Source: Lachnospiraceae bacterium (GTDB lineage: Bacteria; Bacillota; Clostridia; Lachnospirales; Lachnospiraceae). Taken from it: a stretch of DNA of 64,000 nucleotides. Under the pieces are notes generated by a model. It had not been told where the DNA came from, made no database searches, and worked only from the letters and a program-made list of their open reading frames with translations. This document shows, piece by piece, positions 39,262 to 61,691 of this stretch (position 1 is the first letter of the stretch; each line of letters opens with the position of its first letter). The stretch spans positions 4,836,001 to 4,900,000 of the forward strand of contig AP025576.1 in assembly GCA_022845955.1 (NCBI GenBank), given 5' to 3'. The position numbers and the translations under genes were made by a program.

Positions 39262-40879
39262 ATTTCAATTCACGAGGCTACGCAAGCCTCGACGGTATAC
39301 CTTAATGATGCCGCCAGGGTACATATATTTCAATCCACGAGGCTACGCAAGCCTCGACGTAGAATCCGGGGAGTGCCGGGGCAATGGCAAGCGATTTCAA
39401 TCCACGAGGCTACGCAAGCCTCGACGTCCTGGCTCGAGAAGATATATGACAAATTAAAGATTTCAATCCACGAGGCTACGCAAGCCTCGACCACCGTGCC
39501 CTTTCAGCAGGGTTTCACCATTATAGATTTCAATCCACGAGGCTACGCAAGCCTCGACTGTAGAAATAGAAGAGTCAACTGCTTACAATTATATTTCAAT
39601 CCACGAGGCTACGCAAGCCTCGACGGCATAAGTCACAGGGGGACACGGTGGAGTGGTGATTTCAATCCACGAGGCTACGCAAGCCTCGACAATGGATATA
39701 TTTGCGCTTGTCTCCATTGTACCAATTTCAATCCACGAGGCTACGCAAGCCTCGACCAGCGGCAGGATTAGTCCAGGACGGGATCGTAGGATTTCAATCC
39801 ACGAGGCTTCGCAAGCCTCGACGATAAGCGCCCAGAACGCTGCAAAGAATTATCCAATTTCAATCCACGAGGCTTCGCAAGCCTCGACCACAGCTCCTTC
39901 CATGGCTGAATTCCCGAATGGAGATTTCAATCCACGAGGCTTCGCAAGCCTCGACCGTGCCGGTATAATAATACTCCGACACATATCTATTTCAATCCAC
40001 GAGGCTTCGCAAGCCTCGACGTGGATGCGCCGGCAGACGGTGGCATGGTCAAGATATTTCAATCCACGAGGCTTCGCAAGCCTCGACATTGTATGCTAAA
40101 GGCTTTAAATTTTTACATGATATTTCAATCCACGAGGCTTCGCAAGCCTCGACATGTAATCCGGAGGCCAAGACAATGTTTAAATGATTTCAATCCACGA
40201 GGCTTCGCAAGCCTCGACACTTTATCATTTCATCCTGGCTTTTCATGGCGTATTTCAATCCACGAGGCTTCGCAAGCCTCGACCGCCTGATAATATACAG
40301 GTGTTTGGTACACGCAAAATTTCAATCCACGAGGCTTCGCAAGCCTCGACATATATCTTAAAAGATTTTTTTGAGTATTCTAAAATTTCAATCCACGAGG
40401 CTTCGCAAGCCTCGACATAAGGAGACGGGGAGGGAATGGAGTTAATGGAAATTTCAATCCACGAGGCTTCGCAAGCCTCGACCTTATTTTTATGATTGCA
40501 TCACAATTAATCAAATATTTCAATCCACGAGGCTTCGCAAGCCTCGACTTAAAGCCTTTACGCACGGCATTGTCGTGCTTCTTATTTCAATCCACGAGGC
40601 TTCGCAAGCCTCGACAGAGGGCTGTCAATCATTTGGCGATACCCTCAATATTTCAATCCACGAGGCTTCGCAAGCCTCGACTTTGACAGGGTAGTGTTTG
40701 ACGGTTCCGCAGACATTTCAATCCACGAGGCTTCGCAAGCCTCGACGACAAAGTAAAAGATTCCATCCAGGAATATGAGGACATTTCAATCCACGAGGCT
40801 TCGCAAGCCTCGACACCGAAAAATGATACTTGAGGTGGATAACATCGATTTCAATCCACGAGGCTTCGCAAGCCTCGAC
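39262..40879 (-). CRISPR. CRISPR array 1, type I-C repeats, 25 intact units
   Basis: Twenty-five 32-bp repeats with spacers of 33-36 bp. In crRNA sense (minus strand) the repeat starts GTCGAGGCTT, has the stem CGAGGCTT-GCG-AAGCCTCG and ends GTGGATTGAAAT, giving the type I-C handle. The eight oldest units (39262-39756) carry GCGTAGCC, and the 17 newer units (39791-40879) carry GCGAAGCC. The first listed unit also has one change in the tail. The leader is at the right. Spacers run through short open frames by chance because the repeat has no stop in some frames. Confidence 0.97.
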
Positions 40880-41051
40880 AGCAAAACCATGCAAAAAAAT
40901 CACTCAATATACATTTAAAACTATAAACTTTCTACAAACAACTATACTACATCCTATAATAAACTTTAAAAATAATTATGTCCATAAAAATTTTAGTACT
41001 TTTTTTGGTGCGAATCCCCCGGTATTTTCATGTGCACTTGATATTCGCACC
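40880..41051 (-). promoter_or_regulatory. Leader of array 1
   Basis: AT-rich, starting AGCAAAACCATGCA next to the newest repeat. The inverted repeat GGTGCGAAT...ATTCGCACC spans 41007-41051, 128 bp from the repeat. The same elements recur in the three other leaders. Confidence 0.8.
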
Positions 41052-45215: not shown

Positions 45216-45358
45216 TGCCTATTGATAACGTAAACCCGTTTCAAACGGATGTCAAGAGAAAATGAGAGATTTAAGTTATTCCTTGTCTAATTGGAGCAAC
45301 AGTTCAGACGGCCCCATAAAAACATGCTGAATTTTTTATTGCGGAAAACTGTACATCT

Positions 45359-45407
45359 TGTGGATAACAAGCCCTTACAAATAGGATATCTGGAGCATTG
45401 TGGATAA
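45359..45407 (-). promoter_or_regulatory. Two DnaA-box sequences inside the IS left end
   Basis: TTATCCACA occurs on the minus strand at 45359-45367 and 45399-45407, 40 bp apart. Both match the consensus exactly. A third partial match (TTATCCCC) follows near 45480. Chance occurrence of two perfect boxes is unlikely but possible. Confidence 0.45.
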
Positions 45408-45612
45408 CTGAATGCTTAAAGAATGTACCATACTGTTTTTTCTTTGGCCGTTCCTTTTTATTCTGCTGTTTGCTATCAGTTATCCCCCTCTTACCTCTAA
45501 AAACGGTTTCTTTCCACCGTCAAAATGCTGCCCCCGTTCTTCCCTGGGATTCGCCTTTTGGGGTCTTTTCTGATATACTACGTGTATCGGTAATCCGGAA
45601 GGGGGTGTTCCT

Positions 45613-47136
45613 GTGGGTGGCAATTATGAAAAGGGCGTTTACAAGCAGCTGATGGAAGTCATGGAAAAATTAAATGCCATGGAATCCGAGCACTGCCGTG
45701 ACCGCAAAGAGGTAAAGGAACTCACTTCTGAAGTGACGGGGCTACGTAAAGAGAATGCCCATCTCCGGGAAGAGGTATCCCATCTGAAACAGAAAACCAC
45801 TTCCCTGGAGGAAGAGAACACCGGTCTGAAAGCGGAAAATCATCTCCTTCATGAAGATAATGAGCGCATGAAACGAATCCTGGACAATGACAGTTCCAAT
45901 TCTTCCATCCCACCCTCCAAAGATCAGCCCGGAAAAGCCCCCAATACGTTTAACAGCAGAAAACCCACCAAAAAGAAACCGGGAGCCCAGCCGGGCCACA
46001 AAGGAAGCGGCTTGTCAAAGACGCAGGTGGAGCAAAACATCCGGGAAGGGGCTTACCAGCATCGTATAGAGCAGCTGGGTACCCCGGGCAGGGTGTATAT
46101 CACACGGTACCGTCTTGATCTGGAGGTCACCCCTGTTGCAACTGAAATCCGCATCTATGCGGACCAGAATGGGAAATTCCAGGTCCCGAATGAACTCAAA
46201 GCCGATGTTTCTTACGGAGGGACAGTCAAAGCGGTTGCCGCTTTTGTGTATAGCGAAGGAGTTGTTGCCAATGACCGTATCTGCACGTTTATTAACTCCC
46301 TTTCCGGAGACAAACTCCACCTTTCGACCGGGAGCGTATACGGATTCTGCCGGAAATTTGCCCAGTCCTGTTCCACCGCGCGGCCCGCGATTATACAGGA
46401 GCTTTTGAATGCGGATGTCATCTGTACCGACGCAACCCCAGTCAAAACAGACGGAAAGCAGACCCATATCCGGAACTTCAGCACAGAGTCCTGCGTGCTG
46501 TATTGCAGTTCGGAAAAGAAAGATCTGGAAACGCTGGGGAACTTTAAAATCCTAAAGGAATTCACAGGGGCCTTGATCCATGATCACGAAACCGCACTCT
46601 ATCATTTCGGTACCAGGCATGGGGAATGCAACGTCCACCTGGAACGGTATCTGTTAAAAAACACCGAAGAAACCGGAAACCCATGGAGCCATAAGCTGAG
46701 TTGTTTTCTGGAAGGGATGAACCAGGCCCGGAAAAAGCGGATTCTTCAGGGGAACGAATGCTTTACCCCGTCAGAACTGGAGCGCTATGGTTTACGGTAT
46801 GAGGAACTCCTTGCAGAGGGATTGGAGGAGAACAAACATACCAAAGGGCGGATAGCAAAAAAGGAAGAGAAGGCGTTACTAAAGCGGCTGAAGAAGTACA
46901 GGAAGAATCACCTGCTGTTCCTGTACGATTTCCGAATACCTTATAGCAATAACCGTTCGGAAAAAGACCTTCGGATCTGCAAAAACCGCCAGAAAATGGC
47001 AGGCGGATTCCGTACCGCAGCCGGACGCCAAATGTATTGCGACATCATGAGTTTGATAGAAACCATAAAACGTAGGGGATTAAATATTTTTCAAGGTATT
47101 ATTGCCTTGATGAACGGTGTACCAGCCATAAGATGA
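45613..47136 (+). CDS. tnpC: IS66-family transposase
   Basis: 507 residues starting at GTG with AGGGGG seven bases upstream. A leucine-rich coiled coil (about 10-90) is followed by a basic linker with SNSSIPPSKDQPGK. A short zinc-finger-like part comes next, and then the DDE core: CTDATPVKTDG (first D), LIHDHETALYHFG (second D) and YSNNRSEKDLRICKNRQK (E). FRTAAGRQMYCDIMSLIET is the usual C-terminal block. It appears intact and may be active. Confidence 0.9.
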   Translation: MGGNYEKGVYKQLMEVMEKLNAMESEHCRDRKEVKELTSEVTGLRKENAHLREEVSHLKQKTTSLEEENTGLKAENHLLHEDNERMKRILDNDSSNSSIPPSKDQPGKAPNTFNSRKPTKKKPGAQPGHKGSGLSKTQVEQNIREGAYQHRIEQLGTPGRVYITRYRLDLEVTPVATEIRIYADQNGKFQVPNELKADVSYGGTVKAVAAFVYSEGVVANDRICTFINSLSGDKLHLSTGSVYGFCRKFAQSCSTARPAIIQELLNADVICTDATPVKTDGKQTHIRNFSTESCVLYCSSEKKDLETLGNFKILKEFTGALIHDHETALYHFGTRHGECNVHLERYLLKNTEETGNPWSHKLSCFLEGMNQARKKRILQGNECFTPSELERYGLRYEELLAEGLEENKHTKGRIAKKEEKALLKRLKKYRKNHLLFLYDFRIPYSNNRSEKDLRICKNRQKMAGGFRTAAGRQMYCDIMSLIETIKRRGLNIFQGIIALMNGVPAIR

Positions 47137-47190
47137 CTGGTTTATTAGCTGTGGGAATTCATGGGCTGTCTGAACTGTTACCTAATTGGA

Positions 47191-47295
47191 GTAACAGTTC
47201 AGACGCCCCTTTGTGTCCCGCGGCATCCCCCTCCCCTGCTTTTTCCTGGGGCGGCGGTGCTGTAAGGTACCTTCCAGGGGCGTCTGAACAGTTAC
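47191..47295. mobile_element. 105-bp miniature relative of the IS66 element
   Basis: Ends GTAACAGTTCAGACGCCCCT and, read inward from the right, GTAACTGTTCAGACGCCCCT (one mismatch). TAATTGGA flanks both sides (47183-47190, 47296-47303). It carries no gene and abuts the full IS, sharing a flank copy with it. Confidence 0.72.
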
Positions 47296-47732: not shown

Positions 47733-48432
47733 ATGGAAATATGCAGATAGTATGGTATACCCCCGTATAAAGTAATAGTATTGCATGGAGGACCTGGCGC
47801 TCCAGGATGTGCAGCAGGTCTCTGCAGAATTCTTGAGGAAGACATCGATGTACTTAAACATTTGCAAAAAGCCTGCACTATTGATGGATTTATGGATGAA
47901 ATATTATACCTGATTAGAATATATGCTCTTTCACAGATTATTCTTGCAGGTCATTCTTTTGGGGCATGGCTGGCATTGTTATTTGCGGATAAATATCATC
48001 TTCTTGTTTCAAGAGCAATTATTATCGGCTGCGGACCATTAAAGGCCAAGTATCTCCCCGAAATCATTCAAACCCAAAGGAGCGGGCCGAACAGGGGCTT
48101 TCCGATATGGATAATTATCATTCATTACCTGAAACCAATACGGACATGCTGTAATTTGATGAGGAACAGCATAAGGCATTAATGGCTGCAATATTTTCTT
48201 TACGCGAAAGCGGGAACTCCTCGACCGGATACTGCATGTTACCTGTCCGTTAACTGCCTTTCATGGAAAATACGATCCTCCTCCGATTCGGGGATTGAGT
48301 GTACCTCTGGAGGGAAAACTTCCGAATTTACGGCTTATCATTTTGGAAAATTACGGTCATGATACATGGAAGGAAAAATACGCAAGGGAGGAATTCCTCC
48401 AATTAATTCGTAGCGAGCTTGAGATAAACTGA
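47733..48432 (+). pseudogene. Decayed alpha/beta hydrolase (proline iminopeptidase-like)
   Basis: The ATG at 47733 gives MEICR, then an in-frame TAG, then YGIPPYKVIVLHGGPGAPG, the usual HGGPG oxyanion motif. ILAGHSFGAWLALLFADKY carries the nucleophile Ser. The frame is lost near 48090. In other frames the sequence resumes (NYHSLPETNTDM) and ends with TAFHGKYDPPPI, LEGKLPNLRLIILEN and YGHDTWKEKYAREEF up to a stop at 48432, which supplies the catalytic Asp and His regions. So the gene has at least one nonsense change and a frameshift. Confidence 0.72.
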
Positions 48433-48675: not shown

Positions 48676-49452
48676 ATTTCAACCCGCACCACCGCAAAGG
48701 TGGTGACTGGCTGCTCCTATGAAACGGCAGACATTGAGTTTATTTCAATCCACATCACCGCAAAGGTGGTGACAATTCTTCTTATTAGCAACAGCACAAA
48801 TATCATTTCAATCCACACCACCGCAAAGGTGGTGACCGGCTAGTAGCCCGGGAATATGGACTGTCCGATATTTCAATCCACACCACCGCAAAGGTGGTGA
48901 CTGTTGACCGGGGCCCGGTAAGCACCACTGCGGAATCATTTCAATCCACACCACCGCAAAGGTGGTGACCATTGCAACGGCTTTATCCTTTTCTTCATTT
49001 TTAGATTTCAATCCACACCACCGCAAAGGTGGTGACTGAAATTCATAAAGCAAAAGTGCTGCTGACACTTATTTCAATCCACACCACCGCAAAGGTGGTG
49101 ACTCCCTGACATTGGGCGGCACGGTGTATAAGCAGGATTTCAATCCACACCACCGCAAAGGTGGTGACCACATAAGAGATATGCTGATTAAGAGTGTACG
49201 ATTTCAATCCACACCACCGCAAAGGTGGTGACAACCCGGCAGGCGGTAAAAGACCCAAAATCTAAGCATTTCAATCCACACCACCGCAAAGGTGGTGACA
49301 CCACCGCAAAGGTGGTGACAAACCGTTCACAGCCCGAATATATGGTACAAGACGCAAAGGTGGTGACACCACCGCAAAGGTGGTGACTAAAAAACTGGTT
49401 TCCGGCGACCCGATGCTTGTGAAGGTGGTGACACCACCGCAAAGGTGGTGAC
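48676..49452 (-). CRISPR. CRISPR array 2, adjacent to cas2, with aberrant newest repeats
   Basis: Ten units (48676-49299) have the 32-bp repeat that, in crRNA sense, starts GTCACCACC, has the stem CACCACC-TTTGC-GGTGGTG and ends GTGGATTGAAAT. The two outermost old units have one to three changes. At the leader end the pattern breaks. The tenth unit is preceded by a 20-bp extra GTCACCACCTTTGCGGTGGT (49300-49319). Two further units (49356-49387 and 49421-49452) are 32-bp strings made of that block plus GTCACCACCTTT, so they lack ATTGAAAT. Spacers between them are 33-36 bp, as normal. Confidence 0.95.
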
Positions 49453-49622
49453 AGCAATTTTGCATAATTACTACATACTTTCTTCCTTTCTCTCTACACA
49501 ACTATACTAATATTTAACTTTCAGTACCCCACAAATCTTGGAATACATATATATTCAGACGCCATATTGACATTTTCTGGTGCGAATCCCCCGGGGATTT
49601 CATGTGCACTTAGGATTCGCAC
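49453..49622 (-). promoter_or_regulatory. Leader of array 2
   Basis: Starts AGCAATTTTGCATAA beside the newest repeat. The GGTGCGAAT/ATTCGCAC inverted repeat lies at 49579-49622, about 127 bp away, and overlaps the stop codon of cas2. Confidence 0.8.
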
Positions 49623-49912
49623 TAAAATATCAAAGGCTTTTCCACATTAATCCCTTTGTTCACTCCTACATGCTCCACCCGTGCTTTTTTTTGATTTCCC
49701 AAATAATAAAATCTGAGACTGTCCACCTTTTCATCAATCATCTCTGTTAATGAAGCTTTCAGCATTAAACATTGCCCGGGATCCAAAACACATTCAAACA
49801 CGGAATTCTGTACTCTGGTTCCATAATTCACACATTGCTTCGCCACTTTTCTTAACCGGGATTTACCGGCGGCTGATTCCGTGTTGACATCATATGTAAT
49901 TAATACCAGCAT
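49622..49912 (-). CDS. cas2: CRISPR-associated endonuclease Cas2
   Basis: 96 residues with a ferredoxin-like fold: MLVLITYDVNTES supplies the metal Asp, followed by NYGTRVQNSVFEC and DSLRFYYLGN. With Cas1 it forms the complex that integrates new spacers. It lies 9 bp after cas1 as the last gene of the operon. Its stop codon lies inside the inverted repeat of the array 2 leader. Confidence 0.95.
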   Translation of the reverse strand: MLVLITYDVNTESAAGKSRLRKVAKQCVNYGTRVQNSVFECVLDPGQCLMLKASLTEMIDEKVDSLRFYYLGNQKKARVEHVGVNKGINVEKPLIF

Positions 49913-49921
49913 AACCTCCTC

Positions 49922-50953
49922 CTATTTCCAGAAAAAAGGTGGGTATTCATCCAGATCTCCCCTAAGATATCTTGCCAGCAGCATGGATTGCACAAAAGGA
50001 ATCATGCCCCACTCCACTTTTTCTCCCAGATATGGGTGCGTGATTACCTCTTTCTTTTTATTCTGCCATTCCACCAACAAATCCTTCCTGGCATTATCAT
50101 TTAACAGAACGGCTCCATCCTCTTTGTGGGTAAAATCTTTGCCCGTAACCATCTTTTTATTAATAAGAGTTAAAACAAACCGATCCGCCAGCACAGGCCT
50201 GAGTTCCTCGATTAAATCTAAAGCCAGGGATGCCCTTCCGGGTCTGTCCGTATGCATAAACCCTACATAAGGATCCAATCCCACCGTTTCCAAAGCAGAC
50301 GCAACCATATTGGTCAGTAAGGTATATACAAAAGAAAGTAAGGCATTTACATTATCTAAAGGCGGTCTTTTATTCCTGCCTGAAAACACAAAATCCTTTT
50401 TCTGCTGTAAAATCAACTGATTGAATACACCAAAATAGATGCTTGCCGCTTCTCCCTCAAAACCTCTCAGTTGTGCCGTTTCCGTACTTTCCTCAATATT
50501 TTTCAGAGATTTCTGTAAAAACAGAGAGGCCTGCCTTACTTTCTCCGTATCTACCTGCATACTGTGATCCCGGACAGCACGTTCCAAAACCCAGCGGGAA
50601 TTATATACTTTCCCTAATATACAATTTCTGGCAATCCCCAGAGACAATGCAGCATCCGCAGAAACCTGGTACTGCTTTTTTCTTAATACCACATTTCCCC
50701 GGACACTTCCCGTCACTCTTGCCAGGAATTTTCCCTGGGGAGTAAGAAAGCATAAAGATATATTCCTGTTTGCACAGCCACCCATCAACGCAGGGCTTAC
50801 TCCCCTGTATCCAAAGGAAACGATAGCCTCCAGATTATGCAGCGGAATCCGTCCCACTTCCTGATCTTTGTCAAGAATAACCACATTTTCACCATCTAAA
50901 GAAAGATAACTGTCAGGGGAGGTGATGTACAAGGTATTTAAAAGCTTCTTCAT
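49922..50953 (-). CDS. cas1: CRISPR-associated integrase Cas1, type I-C
   Basis: 343 residues. MKKLLNTLYITSPDSYLSLD opens the beta domain. Metal ligands are E166 (LRGFEGEAAS), H234 (GFMHTDRPGR) and D246/E249 (LDLIEELRP). It joins prespacer ends to the leader-side repeat. The ATG overlaps the cas4 stop by four bases (ATGA), so I chose 50953 and not a longer upstream frame. The protein appears intact, which matters for the irregular repeats of array 2. Confidence 0.95.
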   Translation of the reverse strand: MKKLLNTLYITSPDSYLSLDGENVVILDKDQEVGRIPLHNLEAIVSFGYRGVSPALMGGCANRNISLCFLTPQGKFLARVTGSVRGNVVLRKKQYQVSADAALSLGIARNCILGKVYNSRWVLERAVRDHSMQVDTEKVRQASLFLQKSLKNIEESTETAQLRGFEGEAASIYFGVFNQLILQQKKDFVFSGRNKRPPLDNVNALLSFVYTLLTNMVASALETVGLDPYVGFMHTDRPGRASLALDLIEELRPVLADRFVLTLINKKMVTGKDFTHKEDGAVLLNDNARKDLLVEWQNKKKEVITHPYLGEKVEWGMIPFVQSMLLARYLRGDLDEYPPFFWK

Positions 50954-51618
50954 TCGCAATCCTCCGTTATGGCAGCATGGATATACTCTTTTACCGCAGG
51001 TGCTTTTCCCAGCTTGGGTAAACAAATATCTTTTAGGGAACAGGCATTGCAGCTTTTAGACCACTTCACCTTTGGAGTATACCTTTTGTCATATAACTGA
51101 TGCATTTCGTTAAAATACGCTTTCACCTTATCCTTTCGCTCATCCGTGAAAAGAATAGTTTCCCTGCGTCTGGTTTCACCATAAAATACGGCTCCTTCTT
51201 TAATCTCGGCGGAAAACATTTCTTCGAGGCAAAGGGCCTGGGCGGTTAACTGCAGAATATCTATATCGGTGGCTTTCGGGCTTCCTTTTTTGTACTCTAC
51301 GGGAAAAACCTGATAGCAACCGCGGTGCCCGTGGAGCGATATTCCATCCGGCACCTTCCTGAATTCCACAATATCACATTCTCCGCTGACCCCCATACTG
51401 CGGGATACGACTGGCATGGCCCTGCTGATAATGACATCCTTCCGCTTTTCATTAAAATAAGGATCATGTGCATTTTTATGCAGCAGTTCCCCTGCTGCCG
51501 TATACTCATTATCCGCCCATTGCTGCTCAATATGTATCAGAGCCCACTGTCTTCTGCAAAAAGCGAAATGCTGGATTCCTGACAGCATAAGATAATCTTC
51601 TTCCCGTATTTCCATCAT
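50950..51618 (-). CDS. cas4: CRISPR-associated exonuclease Cas4
   Basis: 222 residues. C21 (FCRRQWALIH) and C190, C193, C199 (SCNACSLKDIC) bind an iron-sulfur cluster. GECDIVEF and FPVEYKKGSP form the RecB-type nuclease core. Cas4 trims prespacers and selects PAM and orientation in type I-C. It overlaps cas7 and cas1 by four bases each. Confidence 0.93.
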   Translation of the reverse strand: MMEIREEDYLMLSGIQHFAFCRRQWALIHIEQQWADNEYTAAGELLHKNAHDPYFNEKRKDVIISRAMPVVSRSMGVSGECDIVEFRKVPDGISLHGHRGCYQVFPVEYKKGSPKATDIDILQLTAQALCLEEMFSAEIKEGAVFYGETRRRETILFTDERKDKVKAYFNEMHQLYDKRYTPKVKWSKSCNACSLKDICLPKLGKAPAVKEYIHAAITEDCE

Positions 51619-52505
51619 ATTTTTCTCGATATTTCCACCGAATCCGGAACCTGATCCTCATGTATGGTAACCGAATAATCTTTATATTGTCTGGGGTAGA
51701 GCACATCTTCCCTTTTTTTCACTTCAATGGCGTCAAACAACTTATAAGCCGGACAGTCGCCCAGTTCTTTGCTGTGCCGGAATACAATCAGTTCTCTGAC
51801 CGCCATCTTTCCCCTGGCTGCCGAATGATCAATTTCAAACATATTGATAATGGCATCCCAGAGCAGTTCCAAATCCTCCTCCGAAAATCCGGTTACCTTG
51901 CGGGCCAGATTGGCGGAAATATAACCTTCTGCACGATATAGGGCATATGGCACAATATTTTTTCTTCCCATTTCCGTACTTTTATTTTCCGCATCCTTTT
52001 CTGTGGTGATGGCCACACGGGTAATCGTGACTTCCTGGCTGATAATGGGGTCAATGCTTCTGGCAAATCCCAGCTGTACCGGCCCGCGTACCTGTCCGCA
52101 ATTTAATGCGGCCTTGACAAAAGTTGTCATAACCGCCCCAAAGGTTCTGATATCAAAGAAGTTTTTACACATAAAATCCCTTATTTTCCTGTCCACATCG
52201 GGATCCTTCTTCTTTAATTCCTTTACATCCTTTTCATTGGTTTTCAGATATTCGTATGCCGTATTATCACTCCGGTTTAATGGAACATCCTCTTTAATAT
52301 AAATCTTATACCCTTCCGCATCCTCTTTTACTGTTTCCACATAATTTCGTATTTTTCTTTTCAGGCAGACATCAGTAACAATTCCATAGCCGCTTTCCGG
52401 ATCTATTCTGGGAAGATTCCCGGCATCCGGATCCCCATTGGGGTTCCCGTTCTCCACATCAAACAGCACAACAAATTCATATCTGTTTTTAATTGCTTCT
52501 CCCAT
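51615..52505 (-). CDS. cas7: Cascade backbone protein Cas7c (Csd2)
   Basis: 296 residues. NRYEFVVLFDVENGNPNGDP is the classic start of Csd2, followed by GYGIVTDVCLKRKIRNYV and FGAVMTTF. Several copies bind along the crRNA spacer. ATG at 52505 has GGAGG six bases upstream (a codon-level overlap with the end of cas8c). Confidence 0.94.
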   Translation of the reverse strand: MGEAIKNRYEFVVLFDVENGNPNGDPDAGNLPRIDPESGYGIVTDVCLKRKIRNYVETVKEDAEGYKIYIKEDVPLNRSDNTAYEYLKTNEKDVKELKKKDPDVDRKIRDFMCKNFFDIRTFGAVMTTFVKAALNCGQVRGPVQLGFARSIDPIISQEVTITRVAITTEKDAENKSTEMGRKNIVPYALYRAEGYISANLARKVTGFSEEDLELLWDAIINMFEIDHSAARGKMAVRELIVFRHSKELGDCPAYKLFDAIEVKKREDVLYPRQYKDYSVTIHEDQVPDSVEISRKI

Positions 52506-52506
52506 G

Positions 52507-54279
52507 TTATTGTTCCTCCTTTTTTTCATATCGTTTTTGTGTCTGGTGATAATATCCCAGAATAAACATTCCCTGTTCCTCCAAAGACAGCCTTCTCGGA
52601 TACGCGGAGCTCATTTCATCCGGCGCTTTGATTTTATCCTGCAGTCCCACCAACAGCTTTTCGTAATATATTTCTTTTCCTCTGTTGTTCAGCTTTCTTG
52701 TATGGCTGTTTTTCAGTTTTAACAAAATAGGGAAAATAGAAGCCGGTGTGGCACAGGCCGAATTGAAATATCTGTCCTTTATCGTGGCGTTTATCCCCGG
52801 ATTGGCATCCTCCTGAATCGCCTCCAGTACGGCAAACATCCTCCCTAATGTATAAGCGGTATTATTGCTGTCCTCATTAAGCGCCATAGTGATTTCCTCC
52901 TTATCACAAGTTGTATTTCTCAGCAGGAAGGCTTTAATAATCGCGGCTCTGCCACGTGTGATTTTATAAATACCGCTGCTGCTGTCATCCTGTTCCGACC
53001 GGATTCTTCCCATGACCGCCTGAAACAGGGAATTAGGATACCTGTCCCCCGAAATAACCGCCCGGTAAACCGCACCTGCCATATTGGGAGCCGGCTTTTT
53101 ATCCTTTGACTTTTTGTTTACTGTCTCCATCAGCATACGCCACACCCCCAGGTATCGGTTTTTATCCATCTGAGGTCTGACAATATCCATCCGATCGTAA
53201 TGTGCTTTCAGATTTTGCAGGATACTCCCAAAGCTATCCTGATAAAAAAAACGCACGGCAATTCTGGCCGCATTCGGAGCGAGTCCCAATATATAAAATC
53301 TTTGGGATAAGGAAATATTTTCGGCAACTCCTGAAACATGAACTGCCTTTCCCTCCTGCAGATTTTTAAAAACCCCATCCACAATCTCACAGTTGTCAGC
53401 TGTCGGTTCCGACATATTCAGGAAAATATCCTGATAGGCTTCCTCTCCGTCTTCCGACCAATAAACAATGGTCGTATCACCAATCACAGTGACATGCCGC
53501 CTGTCCGCCAGCAAATGATTCAAAGCCGTCGTATAGGCATAAACCGCATAACTGCCCACCGGCGCATTATAGCTTTGCTTTTTTCCATAGGACTCAAAGG
53601 CAGACTCGTTAAAAGATATCAATGCTGCCCCGCTGGGCTGTGCGCCCTGCACCCCCTTTATATTTCCATGAATCCGGGCAATTTCCGTTTTCTGCCCGGT
53701 TACCAGACAGGTGCCTGTGGCACCCTCGGCGGCGTTCGACCGGTGATCTTCCCATGCCCGTATTATGGAAATGTCGGTATGCGCATACCCATCCTCTGCC
53801 CAGAATACCAGATTGGAACCTGCCGTAATCTCGTCCAGTATTTCTGAAACACATGGATTTTCTGCCGCTTGATCCGGATCCCACCGTTCAAAAAACCGGA
53901 TTACTGCCAATGCCGCAGGACAATCTGCTTCCTTCAGGATATCCAGATGCTTCTCTTTGGCGCATAGAAAGCATTCTTTTGAGCGCTCCGGTTTTCCTTT
54001 ATTGTCAATTCCCAGAAAATAGCTGGAATTATCACATAAAAAATTAGCGGCCACCCCTGAAGATCGGGTTACCATCTGGGGAACCTTCAGGTTCTGTGGT
54101 TCCCAGACGGTTTTCCTTCCTTTCTGCTTTTCTTCCTTCAAGGAAATAACCCGCTTTAGCTCCCCATCGGGAGATAACTCCAGCGCAAAGGATACCCTTG
54201 CATTACACCAGCCCGGCCGGGTAATTTCTCCCCTTTGCTCAAGAGCTTCATAATATTGCACCAGCGACTGCAATATCAT
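52507..54279 (-). CDS. cas8c: Cascade large subunit Cas8c (Csd1)
   Basis: 590 residues. MILQSLVQYYEALEQRGEI is the typical beginning of Csd1; an internal CFLCAKEKHLDIL segment and C-terminal helices (about 430-590) follow. It recognises PAM DNA in the type I-C effector. In this type a small Cas11 is often made from an internal start within the 3' part; I did not find a clear ribosome site that would prove it here. It overlaps cas5c by four bases. Confidence 0.92.
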   Translation of the reverse strand: MILQSLVQYYEALEQRGEITRPGWCNARVSFALELSPDGELKRVISLKEEKQKGRKTVWEPQNLKVPQMVTRSSGVAANFLCDNSSYFLGIDNKGKPERSKECFLCAKEKHLDILKEADCPAALAVIRFFERWDPDQAAENPCVSEILDEITAGSNLVFWAEDGYAHTDISIIRAWEDHRSNAAEGATGTCLVTGQKTEIARIHGNIKGVQGAQPSGAALISFNESAFESYGKKQSYNAPVGSYAVYAYTTALNHLLADRRHVTVIGDTTIVYWSEDGEEAYQDIFLNMSEPTADNCEIVDGVFKNLQEGKAVHVSGVAENISLSQRFYILGLAPNAARIAVRFFYQDSFGSILQNLKAHYDRMDIVRPQMDKNRYLGVWRMLMETVNKKSKDKKPAPNMAGAVYRAVISGDRYPNSLFQAVMGRIRSEQDDSSSGIYKITRGRAAIIKAFLLRNTTCDKEEITMALNEDSNNTAYTLGRMFAVLEAIQEDANPGINATIKDRYFNSACATPASIFPILLKLKNSHTRKLNNRGKEIYYEKLLVGLQDKIKAPDEMSSAYPRRLSLEEQGMFILGYYHQTQKRYEKKEEQ

Positions 54280-54935
54280 CGAACCACCTCACAATCCCTT
54301 ATATCCAAAACACCGTCCCTCAGTTCAGCCCTGAAAAACATAGGCTGTATTTCTTCCGGGTTGGAATAATCAAAATCATAAAGCATATATCCCAGATCCT
54401 TTACCTCTCCCGGATAAGCCGTATCTATTTTCTCGTCTTCCCATAAAGCAAAATTGGCGGGAAACTCCCTGCAGCCCAGATACGGCATGTGATAACACTC
54501 CCCTTTACGGAGACGCCGCATGATAATATCCTTAAATTTACCCGGATTATCGCTGCCATTGGCCTGTTCCGTCATTTCAAAATGTGCTTCTATCACATAT
54601 TCCACTTCTCTCAGCAAAATAGCGGCTCTTTGCACAATTTCTTCCTTACTGCTGATATAGAGCGGCTTATCTCCCCCATTCATGACTTGTAACACATTGC
54701 TTGCCAGTACCTTGCTTTTTACCTCATTCCTGCGGACACTGGTAAAACAGATCGGCTTTCTGACATGGATTTTATCAATCACCCAACGCAGTCCGGGATG
54801 CCAATAAATCGCTTCCAGTATCCCTCTGGCCGCAGAGGGTGTCATCACATCGTAGCTGCACCGCTCCACCTTCATTTCCGGGCGGGAAAAAAGTGCCAGT
54901 TCCCCCCACACCCGTACTTTTACACCATGGCTCAT
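54276..54935 (-). CDS. cas5c: Cas5c, repeat endoribonuclease of type I-C
   Basis: 219 residues with RAMP-type folds: VRVWGELALFSRPEMKVERC, YDVMTPSAARGILEAIYWHP and FPANFALWE. In type I-C, Cas5c replaces Cas6 and cuts the repeat at the base of its stem to leave the 11-base handle ending ATTGAAAT. The unusual variety of four repeat stems in the window must be handled by this one protein unless another enzyme exists. GGAGG is six bases before the ATG. Confidence 0.93.
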   Translation of the reverse strand: MSHGVKVRVWGELALFSRPEMKVERCSYDVMTPSAARGILEAIYWHPGLRWVIDKIHVRKPICFTSVRRNEVKSKVLASNVLQVMNGGDKPLYISSKEEIVQRAAILLREVEYVIEAHFEMTEQANGSDNPGKFKDIIMRRLRKGECYHMPYLGCREFPANFALWEDEKIDTAYPGEVKDLGYMLYDFDYSNPEEIQPMFFRAELRDGVLDIRDCEVVR

Positions 54936-54964: not shown

Positions 54965-57103
54965 TTAAAATATGACTGCTTCCCCTCTTTCCACCTGTAT
55001 CTGAAGCCCCATTTCTTCCGAATACTGCTCTTTATTTCTCAATACATAAAAACCAGGCGCAATGGCCTCCAGCCTGCCTGCACCATTTAATTTATCAAAA
55101 TCCTGCTCATACACATTGACACAATATTGTCCCGTATCTCTGATAAGCTGACGGGAATATTCCCCTCTCCGGATGCGCTCCGCCAGTAATTGAGCCTCCG
55201 GTTCCCGGTCTATCAAAATAGTTGTTGTATCATTTTCAATCAGACGGAACTGTTTTGCCACCGTTGCAAAAGGAAATAACAAGGATCTTCGTCCTTCTTC
55301 CATCTGTCCAACAATATTTTTGGCATCCAGTCCTTCTCCCCGAAAATGATACAGACGGCTAAAATAATCTGCTATTGCCTCCAAGGAAGCGATATCATCA
55401 TACGTTTCCGCCACCTGTCCCGATATGGAAACCGGCAGCTTTAATGACTGTGGAATGTGATTTTCCTCAGTCTTATCCAGGGTGAAAATCGTTGTCACAC
55501 AAGTTTCTTTCTGTCGCCTTCCTTCCCTGTTGCATCTTCCCGCAGCCTGTATCATCGAATCCACACCAGCCAGCTCCCGGAATACGGAAGGAAAATCAAA
55601 ATCCACGCCGGCTTCTACCAAACTGGTGGCGATAAGCCTGCAGGGAAGCCCCTTGTCCAACCGGTCTCTGATAATTGTAAGAAGCTTTTTCCGGTGCCTG
55701 GGATACATAAAAGTGGACAGGTGATAAGTACCTTCTTCTTCCTGCAGCATTCCAAAAATCCGCTGAACACCTTTTCTGCTGTTCAAAATACAAAGTACCT
55801 GTGTATGTTCCTTAAGCTGCTCTGTCAGCTCTGCCTCCGCGATTTCTCCCACATTCCGGAATACGGTCCGCCTGAAAAAGTCATATTGCTCCTGAACCCT
55901 GGGGCATATTTCAGCCACATTCAACTGGGGCGGGAAAAAGGACTGCAGGGAGGGCTGGGTGGCTGTACAAAGCACCACCGTACTATGATAGTTATATACC
56001 AGTTCACTAATGGCCTGAATACAGGGCTTTAAATAATTGACCGGCAGCATCTGTGCTTCATCAAATATAATAACACTGTCAGCCATATTATGAAGTTTTC
56101 TGCATTTAGTAGATTTATTGGAAAATAAAGATTCAAAAAACTGAACATTAGTCGTAACCACTACAGGACAATCCCAGTTTTCAGCCGCAAGCTGAATCTT
56201 ATTCAGTTTATCCGGATCTTCATAAACAACATTGCAATGATCCTCCAGAACATTTCCGTCTCCCAGAATTTCCTTAAAAATCTGCGCATTTTGTTCAATA
56301 ATACTAGTGTATGGAATTACGTATATAACTCTAACCAATTTATGCTTCCGGGCATGTTGAAGGGCAAATGCAAGGGAAGACACTGTTTTCCCCCCGCCTG
56401 TAGGAACGGTCAGCCGGAATATTCCCTGCTCTTCCTTTCCCCTCTCCAGGCATGCTTTCAATATTTCTGTCCTTCTGCCGTTCACAGTGGAAAGCTCCTC
56501 ATTTTTGAGCCAGGATTCCACATACAAATACAACCGTTCAAACAAAGTCTCTATGGAGTCAAATTTTCCTCTGCCTGCACATCCGTCCGTCATGAATGCT
56601 TCTGTATCCAGGTAATCTGCATCAACCAAACAGGAAAATAACATACGAATAAAAAAAGAGAGGCTGAAACCTCCTTTTCCCAACGGTTTGAGCGGCGGCG
56701 CTTTAAACGCAGGAATCGTAACCTCATTACGAAATTCCTGATAATCATCCAACTCTTTCTGCATTCTTCCTTTTAATGTGGCCTCTCCGCCTGTATCGGC
56801 CGCACTTCCCCCGTCTAAAAGACCGGAATGATGGCCCGATATACAATAGGCGCCAACGTAATTGTTTTTTTGATACAATTCTTTAGCACCGGCAGTGGCG
56901 TGGTCGGTTATCTTACCTCCATGAAGACGCTTTTGAAAACCGTCTGAATATTTTCCGATATCATGCAGCAGGCCACAGCCATATCCCCAGTCCCCTGAAT
57001 CGAATGCAGATGCAAATCTGCATGCTAAATCTGCGGTTCCTTTCAGGTGTTCCAGAATACTTTGTTCCCGCAGGCCGTCTTCACTAATATGTGCTAAGAA
57101 CAT
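54965..57103 (-). CDS. cas3: CRISPR-associated helicase/nuclease Cas3 (HD plus helicase)
   Basis: 712 residues. The HD nuclease domain (1-200) has H19, HD at 47-48 and HH at 91-92. The SF2 helicase follows, with TVPTGGGKT (233-240), IIFDEAQML (DEAQ 348-351) and AAGRCNREGR. It degrades target DNA after Cascade binding. It is the first gene of the seven-gene operon, with 29 bp to cas5c, and all domains appear intact. Confidence 0.95.
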   Translation of the reverse strand: MFLAHISEDGLREQSILEHLKGTADLACRFASAFDSGDWGYGCGLLHDIGKYSDGFQKRLHGGKITDHATAGAKELYQKNNYVGAYCISGHHSGLLDGGSAADTGGEATLKGRMQKELDDYQEFRNEVTIPAFKAPPLKPLGKGGFSLSFFIRMLFSCLVDADYLDTEAFMTDGCAGRGKFDSIETLFERLYLYVESWLKNEELSTVNGRRTEILKACLERGKEEQGIFRLTVPTGGGKTVSSLAFALQHARKHKLVRVIYVIPYTSIIEQNAQIFKEILGDGNVLEDHCNVVYEDPDKLNKIQLAAENWDCPVVVTTNVQFFESLFSNKSTKCRKLHNMADSVIIFDEAQMLPVNYLKPCIQAISELVYNYHSTVVLCTATQPSLQSFFPPQLNVAEICPRVQEQYDFFRRTVFRNVGEIAEAELTEQLKEHTQVLCILNSRKGVQRIFGMLQEEEGTYHLSTFMYPRHRKKLLTIIRDRLDKGLPCRLIATSLVEAGVDFDFPSVFRELAGVDSMIQAAGRCNREGRRQKETCVTTIFTLDKTEENHIPQSLKLPVSISGQVAETYDDIASLEAIADYFSRLYHFRGEGLDAKNIVGQMEEGRRSLLFPFATVAKQFRLIENDTTTILIDREPEAQLLAERIRRGEYSRQLIRDTGQYCVNVYEQDFDKLNGAGRLEAIAPGFYVLRNKEQYSEEMGLQIQVERGEAVIF

Positions 57104-57399: not shown

Positions 57400-59012
57400 A
57401 TTGTAATCCGGGAGGCCGCGAAAGCCTCAAACCGGCTGTCATGAAGGGCGGCGGTATACTCCTTATTTCAATCCACGAGACCGTGAAAGCCTCGACCTGA
57501 TTTTTATGAAGTGCAGCGTAGATCAATTCTATTTCAATCCACGAGGCCGTGAAAGCCTCGACATATAAAACCGTGCAGCGACGCAGAAGCAACTTCAATT
57601 TCAATCCACGAGGCCGTGAAAGCCTCGACGTGGTTTACAGTGGCACACAACCGTATAAACATATTTCAATCCACGAGGTCGTGAAAGCCTCGACGACTTT
57701 TGGGGGGGCATTCCTGACGCGTTCCGAAAATTTCAATCCACGAGGCCGCGAAAGCCTCGACCGGATCCGGACAGGCCGGTAGAAGGGCTGTTTAAAATTT
57801 CAATCCACCAGGCCGTGAAAGCCTCGACGGTATGAACACAGAGTATTCTGTTGTTGCCAAGAGATTTCAATCCACGAGGCCGTGAAAGCCTCGACCAAAT
57901 GTACAGTCTGCAGGTGGAGCTTGCCAATATTTCAATCCACGAGGCCGTGAAAGCCTCGACCGCAGTTCCGGGGCATTATAAACATCTGCCATACATTTCA
58001 ATCCACGAGGCCGTGAAAGCCTCGACCATCCGCATTGCTCGCAAAAAACGTACCGATAACATTTCAATCCACGAGGCCGTGAAAGCCTCGACAAGGTCAC
58101 TTCCTTTAATTAGGTTGTGTGGATTATTTCAATCCACGAGGCCGTGAAAGCCTCGACATGGAACATTCAGGCAGACAGCTATTTCCAGTTGGGATTTCAA
58201 TCCACGAGGCCGTGAAAGCCTCGACCCAATATTACTTCAGACATTGGTATAGATAATGATTTCAATCCACGAGGCCGTGAAAGCCTCGACCGATCCTCCT
58301 TTTCTTTTGGTACTATCGGAAGAATTTCAATCCACGAGGCCGTGAAAGCCTCGACAGATATGGAAGGGATAAAGGATGCAGAAATCAGCATTTCAATCCA
58401 CGAGGCCGTGAAAGCCTCGACTATATAAATATTTATATCGGAGTGATAAATACTATTTCAATCCACGAGGCCGTGAAAGCCTCGACGATGCCATTAAGGC
58501 AGAAGCGTACTACCGGAGAATTTCAATCCACGAGGCCGTGAAAGCCTCGACGAAAAACTCCTGTGCCTAATTCCTACTGAAAAAGATTTCAATCCACGAG
58601 GCCGTGAAAGCCTCGACATATGTTATTCTCACGTTTTTTCCTCCTTAATAATTTCAATCCACGAGGCCGTGAAAGCCTCGACACAGATTAATCAACTCGT
58701 CTTCCGGCAGTTCCATATTTCAATCCACGAGGCCGTGAAAGCCTCGACGTTGATAGCGCCAATGAATGCGTTTTTAATTTTATTTCAATCCACGAGGCCG
58801 TGAAAGCCTCGACTCGTGGAGGATTTACAACTGCGGTGCAGAGTCTATATTTCAATCCACGAGGCCGTGAAAGCCTCGACTGACGGATTACAAGACAGCG
58901 TGCAGGTTAATCCGGATTTCAATCCACGAGGCCGTGAAAGCCTCGACGGAGTTTTTCCGGCATGAGCGTAGTCAAATGGCATTTCAATCCACGAGGCCGT
59001 GAAAGCCTCGAC
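57400..59012 (-). CRISPR. CRISPR array 3, 24 intact units and one decayed unit
   Basis: 32-bp repeats with, in crRNA sense, the stem CGAGGC-TTTCACG-GCCTCG and the same GTGGATTGAAAT tail. The outermost unit (57400-57432) is decayed, and units at 57465, 57663, 57730 and 57797 have single changes. Spacers are 33-36 bp. The trailer lies 300 bp upstream of cas3 and the leader is at the right. Confidence 0.97.
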
Positions 59013-61049: not shown

Positions 61050-61691
61050 TTTTCATTCCATAAAGCATACAAAGTTTTCGACGGTATACCGTGTATTCCA
61101 ATTGCTAAAAAATGCAGGTTTTCATTCCACGAGGCCCGCAAAGGCCTCGACATCGGAAAACGACTTGTGGCAGAAGTACTGTACATTTCAATCCACGAGA
61201 CCCACAAAGGCCTCGACACTGATTGCCGCCAATACATACCGGGATAAGACGATTTCAATCCACGAGACCCACAAAGGCCTCGACGGTGTAGTAAAGGTAA
61301 ATACCATGTTGGACAATGATTTCAATCCACGAGACCCACAAAGGCCTCGACTTTACGGACAAAAAACAGACCTGGGATGGTTCGACATTTCAATCCACGA
61401 GACCCACAAAGGCCTCGACGCATACCGAGTCCGGCAGGACAAGCCGGCAATGTAAATTTCAATCCACGAGACCCACAAAGGCCTCGACAAAAATGCTGGA
61501 ACTGTACGGGTATGCCGACAGCATTTCAATCCACGAGACCCACAAAGGCCTCGACCGGCGGTTGCGCATGGTTACGCATGGTTTCGCATATTTCAATCCA
61601 CGAGACCCACAAAGGCCTCGACGTAAAAATGCTGGAACTGTACGGGTATGCGGACAGCATTTCAATCCACGAGACCCACAAAGGCCTCGAC
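61050..61691 (-). CRISPR. CRISPR array 4, eight intact units and two decayed units
   Basis: 33-bp repeats. In crRNA sense the stem is CGAGGCC-TTTGTG-GGTCTCG with one G-T pair, and the tail is the same GTGGATTGAAAT. The two oldest units (61050-61082, 61119-61151) read TTTTCATTCC in place of the handle. Spacers run 34-36 bp. The spacers at 61489-61522 and 61623-61658 are nearly the same sequence. The leader is at the right. Confidence 0.95.

Follow-up and report, generated by a model that had tools for sequence, protein, structure and literature searches.

A type I-C CRISPR array whose two newest units appear to be length-measured copies of a damaged leader-end repeat

What sets the far end of the repeat that a type I-C integrase copies, its sequence or its distance from something else, and can a repeat that has lost its crRNA handle still be handed on to new spacers? 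Both questions are raised by array 2, a type I-C CRISPR array on the minus strand (48677-49452) directly downstream of cas2, in the 64,000-nt stretch of a Lachnospiraceae genome that we analysed (the window, to which positions refer unless stated otherwise). Its normal repeat, R, is 32 bp long (GTCACCACCTTTGCGGTGGTGTGGATTGAAAT in minus-strand reading), and we number its bases R1 to R32. From the leader, the order is U2, S2, U1, S1, R1-20, R, then nine older spacers with normal repeats and a degenerate terminal repeat; U1 and U2 are anomalous units, jointly called U where they agree, and S1 and S2 are the two newest spacers:

49453..49621, minus strand: array 2 leader, flanked by cas2 and the newest repeat, reading ...AAAATTGCT at the repeat junction
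49421..49452, minus strand: U2, the newest unit, R1-20 + R1-11 + C, adjoining S2
49388..49420, minus strand: S2, the newest spacer, 33 nt
49356..49387, minus strand: U1, the second-newest unit, exactly R1-20 + R1-12
49320..49355, minus strand: S1, 36 nt, presumably the first spacer gained after the lesion
49300..49319, minus strand: the 20-bp block, R1-20, a nested partial repeat taken as the footprint of the lesion
49268..49299, minus strand: the first normal 32-bp repeat
48677..49267, minus strand: the older part of array 2, nine spacers, each with a normal-handle repeat upstream, and the degenerate terminal repeat last

A recount bore out that the 20-bp block (49319-49300) has precisely the sequence of R1-20 and adjoins the first normal repeat (49299-49268), and the coordinates that a preliminary description had given for the block and both units proved correct. 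Its statement that the units are exact 32-bp copies holds for U1 (32/32) and falls one base short for U2 (31/32), which has C instead of T at base 32 and thus matches U1 over 31 bases. In U1, identity with the template continues for three bases (GCG) beyond position 32, for 35 bp in total, and these three may match by chance. The same would not hold for R1-12 standing in place of GTGGATTGAAAT, for which our own arithmetic gives chance probabilities of about 4^-12 (U1) and 4^-11 (U2). The two spacers (36 and 33 nt) are unrelated to each other, and their lengths are in keeping with those of the nine older ones (31-36 nt). U2 directly follows the leader (TTGCT, then GTC); in the seven other arrays of the genome, GTC is preceded by TTTGCT or TTTGCA.

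A scan of the array 2 leader for promoters and terminators found nothing. In seven of the eight arrays of this genome, the upstream region carries an element TGCGAAT...ACA...TCGCAC that starts some 170-180 bp upstream, and a similar element lies upstream of array 2 at about 49579-49622. At the other end, just past the old end of the array, there is what appears by eye to be a broken alpha/beta-hydrolase gene (47781-48430). Farther on (45287-47209), a 507-aa ORF (45613-47136), which we take to resemble an IS66-type transposase, sits between direct 28-bp repeats (at 45287 and 47182, 93% alike).

Repetitive loci such as CRISPR arrays invite errors of sequencing or assembly, in which repeats are collapsed or mis-joined, and a contamination of 9.46% is listed for this genome. 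We nevertheless consider an artefact hardly credible: the genome is a single contig of 7.29 Mb (7,291,680 bases), U1 and U2 follow one rule and border two spacers, each unique and of ordinary length, and the seven other arrays look normal at their leader ends.

The account that we propose, and hold with good confidence as a whole, is that a lesion fused R1-20 to a repeat in an array that looks active, that two length-measured copies followed, probably made by a ruler anchored on the repeat hairpin, and that the crRNAs of S1 and S2 are probably poor. A rearrangement at the leader end would first have joined R1-20 straight onto a full repeat. One candidate is a 20-bp tandem duplication between matching TGT triplets (3-bp homology) that lie at R20-22 and where the leader meets R1. 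The other is a deletion in which R21-32 and one spacer would be lost between GT dinucleotides (2-bp homology) at R21-22 and R1-2; with the spacer lengths of array 2, it would remove about 43-48 bp. The two would leave identical products and be indistinguishable here; an insertion or slippage, as had been suggested for the nested repeat, fits, but a deletion accounts for the 20-bp block equally well. A target of the form leader, R1-20, R is needed before S1; inserting S1 into it yields the observed leader, U, S1, and U followed by R13-32. As the sequence strongly implies, Cas4-Cas1-Cas2 would then have placed S1 next to the leader and made the second cut at a set distance past the leader-adjacent hairpin, so that R1-20 + R1-12 became the copied unit. 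A second acquisition, that of S2, is implied just as strongly and would have recopied this unit to within one base. The unit copied for S2 holds no native repeat end anywhere, and since it was recopied all the same, the second cut seems to be independent of the normal 3' sequence of the repeat. Seen in a single genome, the lesion would be handed on whenever a further spacer is acquired at this leader, barring its loss by recombination.

Recombination or template switching between repeats might also be held responsible for the units themselves, with no length-measured integration involved. In its favour, the repeats share one sequence, which includes an inverted repeat, and the 20-bp block requires a rearrangement in any case. 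Homologous exchange between full repeats preserves register, however, and does not yield R1-20 + R1-12 together with a new spacer twice; moreover, the two events would both need a nearly identical end base. We judge this explanation very unlikely.

If length-measured integration made the units, the product can be used to ask what was measured. A far cut set by the sequence of the repeat end (ATTGAAAT) was rejected: it would have given S1 flanks of 52 bp, which are not seen, and distance rather than sequence must therefore have placed the cut. This supports the order of events already put forward, a nested repeat first and later acquisitions that copied by length and not by end sequence. Also rejected was a 20-bp duplication at each acquisition (R1-20 only being copied), which would give 20-bp flanks. 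Judging from the product sequence, the new repeat kept its length whatever the sequence at its far end, with at least 32 (U1) and at least 31 (U2) template bases copied.

Inside array 2, a ruler anchored on the hairpin and one anchored on the leader predict the same product, and only a comparison across arrays separates the two. The cas operon beside array 2 (cas3, cas5c, cas8c, cas7, cas4, cas1, cas2) is complete, with 7/7 proteins over curated cut-offs, six of them matched nearly end to end and Cas3 through two domain models (NCBIfam scores, with cut-offs in brackets):

49622..49912, minus strand: cas2, TIGR01573, 66.9 bits (24.5)
49922..50953, minus strand: cas1 (type I-C), the only Cas1 detected in the genome, TIGR03640, 490.2 bits (385), and PF01867
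50950..51618, minus strand: cas4, TIGR00372, 114.2 bits (65)
51615..52529, minus strand: cas7 (Csd2), TIGR02589, 348.4 bits (182.25)
52507..54279, minus strand: cas8c (Csd1), TIGR01863, 463.9 bits (218.65)
54276..54935, minus strand: cas5c (Cas5d), the type I-C crRNA-processing nuclease, TIGR01876, 168.1 bits (85)
54965..57103, minus strand: cas3 (HD nuclease and helicase), TIGR01596, 90.8 bits (43.45), and TIGR01587, 118.8 bits (102.45)

A search with the Pfam Cas1 model (PF01867) hit one place in the genome, and we infer that one Cas1 built all eight arrays. Four of these lie in the window (39271-40880, 48677-49452, 57465-59012 and 61185-61691), two in locus L039, one in L040 (5055-5352) and one in L168 (1007-2014). 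The genome has 114 exact copies of GTGGATTGAAAT, all of them in the eight arrays or at two lone sites outside arrays; arrays with a different repeat end would escape this count. The repeats of the eight I-C arrays have diverged, and their lengths are 31 bp in array 8, 32 bp in arrays 1, 2, 3, 6 and 7, 33 bp in array 4 and 34 bp in array 5. In all eight, the repeat is predicted to fold as 2 nt, a hairpin and 11 nt.

The same layout is found more widely. Our survey comprised 108 rows of type I-C arrays from 95 loci, with 2754 full repeats; they came from the window, from relatives of it and from loci found by scanning a genome collection. A consensus repeat could be derived for 99 of the 108 rows, and 90 of these 99 have an 11-nt tail, with lengths of 31-34; the other nine are six truncated consensuses and three with tails of 9, 10 or 12. 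Because repeats of 31-34 bp share an 11-nt tail under one detected Cas1, a hairpin-anchored ruler is favoured, and so it is by U, which keeps hairpin + 11 though the handle sequence is gone. We conclude, with moderate confidence, that the ruler probably measures from the inverted repeat (hairpin + 11) rather than counting 32 bp from the leader. The constancy of the tail may also be imposed by the effector, since the tail is the crRNA handle. Rulers of the kind proposed are described, in the part of PMC6895254 drawn on here, for types I-E and I-B, where they are anchored on the inverted repeat, and for type II-A, where an internal motif is followed at a fixed 8-10 bp by the second cut, irrespective of sequence. 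The preliminary description had proposed a flat 32-bp ruler that starts at the leader junction. This is consistent with array 2 but fits poorly with arrays 8, 4 and 5, which keep repeats of 31, 33 and 34 bp in a genome with one detected Cas1 and would need another explanation; a flat count thus appears improbable to us.

The two units differ in how they end. U1 closes with CTTT before G and U2 with CTTC before A, versus AAAT before any base in normal repeats. The final C of U2 is unusual because T is the last base in 2525 of 2526 copies from arrays whose repeats end in AAAT. It may be a point mutation. It may also be a remnant of the PAM of the S2 prespacer, that is, a 31-bp copy plus one untrimmed base, in which case the altered tail would make the cut or the trimming slightly less exact. 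The match of 35 bases in U1 against 31 in U2 can be put in the same terms: a wrong tail may let the cut wander, or a point mutation may have arisen in U2.

Whatever its origin, this C creates a feature absent from the preliminary description. The last three bases of U2 (49423-49421, minus strand), right before S2, read TTC, and TTC is given as the type I-C PAM in passages of PMC7913775 and PMC8406640 (as GAA on the other strand for B. halodurans in an excerpt of PMC6519985). None of 3059 surveyed repeat copies, in a scan allowing up to 3 substitutions, has TTC as its last trinucleotide. From array 2 itself, the PAM evidence is one plasmid match: its oldest spacer matches the relaxase gene of a Monoglobus plasmid at 31/34 positions, with TTC as 5' flank. 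The same spacer has two imperfect matches in its own genome, 31/34 (2871281, L171) and 30/34 (395820, L172), in ORFs that by eye resemble the plasmid relaxase and with the flanks GCC and TTG instead of TTC. TTC on the plasmid copy and none on the genomic copies fits what a working PAM-dependent system would tolerate, in small numbers. In type I-E the array is spared because the PAM is absent from it, as the portion of PMC3764190 used here explains. With TTC before S2, the array that encodes the S2 crRNA would itself be a target if that crRNA worked; the survival of array 2 is in line with the crRNA being inert or with interference being switched off, and S2 is probably inert.

The state of the handle points the same way for both spacers. 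Its identity to R is 2/11 positions in U1 and 1/11 in U2, and while normal repeats follow the type I-C handle plan, these two have the handle sequence replaced. In the B. halodurans scheme, as outlined in part of a review (PMC5965380), the crRNA has an 11-nt 5' handle and a 21-nt 3' part. On that plan, the predicted handles are UCACCACCUUU for S1 and UCACCACCUUC for S2, of the right length, versus UGGAUUGAAAU normally. In its predicted fold, U shares the 7-bp stem of R, and G21 and U22 are retained, so the earlier claim of "no normal handle" applies to the sequence, which is lost, but not to the hairpin, to G21-U22 or to the 11-nt length, which are kept. The model also places an additional outer pair, G1-C23, around the cut site, and in a fold of U1 with S1 part of the tail pairs with S1; cutting of U by Cas5c is for these reasons not assured. 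As the last step of the account, Cas5c may still cut after G21, releasing S1 and S2 crRNAs that would carry UCACCACCUUU, or its variant ending in C, for UGGAUUGAAAU and would probably be badly assembled into Cascade. In cryo-EM of the D. vulgaris type I-C Cascade, in the section of PMC7684278 considered here, Cas5c holds the handle through conserved contacts near U5, and the authors describe the 5' end of the handle as critical. Position U5 is C in U (by our own numbering), and we infer that the S1 and S2 crRNAs are poorly used.

The same copying may nevertheless have produced crRNAs that work, if the cut falls after G21 and Cascade accepts an odd 11-nt handle on account of its normal length, first base and following hairpin. 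The retained 7-bp stem, G21 and U22 would indeed yield an 11-nt handle, Cas7.7 of type I-C contacts the handle backbone non-specifically (same section of PMC7684278), and in type I-E, repeat changes at -1 to -3 left crRNA processing unaffected according to a data-not-shown remark in the portion of PMC3764190 cited above. That portion also reports, however, that few changes at -1 to -3 retain full resistance in type I-E. The match to R is just 2/11 and 1/11, with R23-R31 each 97.9-99.9% conserved in the surveyed repeats (partly owing to the way repeats were selected), and the Cas5c contacts lie around U5, C here, near a 5' end described as critical. A working S2 crRNA would, besides, face a perfect match flanked by TTC in array 2 itself. 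We see working crRNAs as unlikely, with a small but real chance, and loss of S1 and S2 crRNA function as the outcome to which the handle sequences point.

Slightly better than even, in our estimate, are the prospects of a more specific reading, a self-perpetuating dead repeat: a hairpin with the wrong tail that is still copied by a type I-C ruler of hairpin + 11 bp that ignores the tail, leaving new spacers without a handle and S2 unsafe. If it is true, array 2 still acquires yet cannot use what gets written, and with a tail that ends in TT, one more base (C) makes a PAM beside a spacer within the array. To call the array dying, as had been done, is too strong, since 9 of 11 spacers have normal handles and the seven other arrays look normal at their leader ends; functional decay is plausible and so far limited to 2 of the 11 spacers.

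Neither of the two spacers led to a source. For S1, there is no convincing match among phages (one 22-nt match at E = 5, discarded), viral contigs (no 19-20-mers), 299 family genomes (up to 3 mismatches; its own place only) or plasmids, where array 2 hit five records and no matched range touches S1 or S2. S2 gave one 22-nt phage match at E = 4, also discarded, none but its own place in its genome (up to 3 mismatches) and nothing in a search with a degenerate back-translated pattern. Its 20-mers found one viral contig, with the first 21 nt identical, 24/33 overall and the flank GAC instead of TTC, inside an ORF encoding ...SGDPMLV...; this phage contig would be a homologue at best and not the source. 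Array 2 as a whole hit two phage records, one of them an unrelated CRISPR array on a metagenomic contig and the other at E = 0.8. No match was found for array 1 and most of array 3 among phages and plasmids, for arrays 5 and 6 among plasmids, or for two further array 2 spacers among viral sequences. Outside arrays, a search of the genome itself with arrays 1, 2 and most of 3 returned nothing beyond the two relaxase-like ORFs and, at 4983916, a lone degenerate repeat. This last (genome positions 4983916-4983947, in L040) lies about 560 bp past the array 7 leader end and is perhaps a relic of an older array. In array 4 (61185-61691), two spacers are near-identical (GCTGTCCGCATACCCGTACAGTTCCAGCATTTTT and GCTGTCGGCATACCC...), as if one target site had been sampled twice from variant elements.

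How rare is such a lesion? Among the 108 survey rows, an unpaired repeat start at the leader end (the first 14 bases, at most 1 mismatch, within 450 bp upstream) occurs in array 2 only, and none of the 107 other rows has a nested leader-end repeat; in 103 rows, the first full repeat had 150 bp or more of upstream sequence. These numbers refer to arrays with an I-C-like repeat end, which the survey was confined to; L001-L028 were dropped as short or repeated places, array 8 lies outside the 108 rows, of the 45 genomes that passed the Cas1 cut-off, 40 supplied new stretches, two were already included and three were unused, and some arrays split across loci count twice (Eisenbergiella tayi in L029, L030 and L083). 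An exact 31-mer of U occurs in 0 stretches of a one-genome-per-species collection, from which its own genome was possibly excluded. Oddities inside arrays were not propagated, namely a degenerate repeat in L091 and one-base deletions in L065, L121 and L146; in L065 and L121, the deletion sits in a lone internal repeat and is absent from later repeats. The portions of the open-licence literature that we covered hold no natural nested repeat, and no natural, inherited, handle-destroying type I-C case with a PAM inside the array, while copying by a ruler is already known.

In other subtypes, engineered repeats have already revealed rulers for repeat length, and array 2 seems to be a natural test of the principle in type I-C, with two successive products kept. 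It sets the requirements of the integrase (leader junction, hairpin, distance) apart from that of the effector (handle sequence), suggests that the handle goes unchecked by the integrase, and offers a concrete route by which an array stays active in acquisition while its new memories turn inert or self-directed.

A normal counterpart is the I-C array of E. tayi DSM 26961 (same genus, with a Cas1 89% identical to the array 2 cas1 product), which lies at the same site by cas2, has a leader end reading ...GCAAAATTGCT and repeats of the form 2 nt, hairpin and 11 nt; unlike array 2, it is normal and has no nested repeat. Degenerate terminal repeats, one of which closes the old end of array 2, resemble U in their damaged 3' end, but they are leader-distal and uncopied, whereas the lesion of array 2 lies at the leader end and was copied. 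A further likeness is to ruler-controlled duplication (types I-E, I-B and II-A, engineered), as presented in the cited part of PMC6895254 and the studies it cites: there too, the distance from an internal element fixes the second site, irrespective of the sequence that is cut, and changes downstream of the ruler alter the copied repeat. Compared with these engineered cases, array 2 is a natural type I-C lesion that has gone through two successive acquisitions, with nearly the whole handle sequence replaced.
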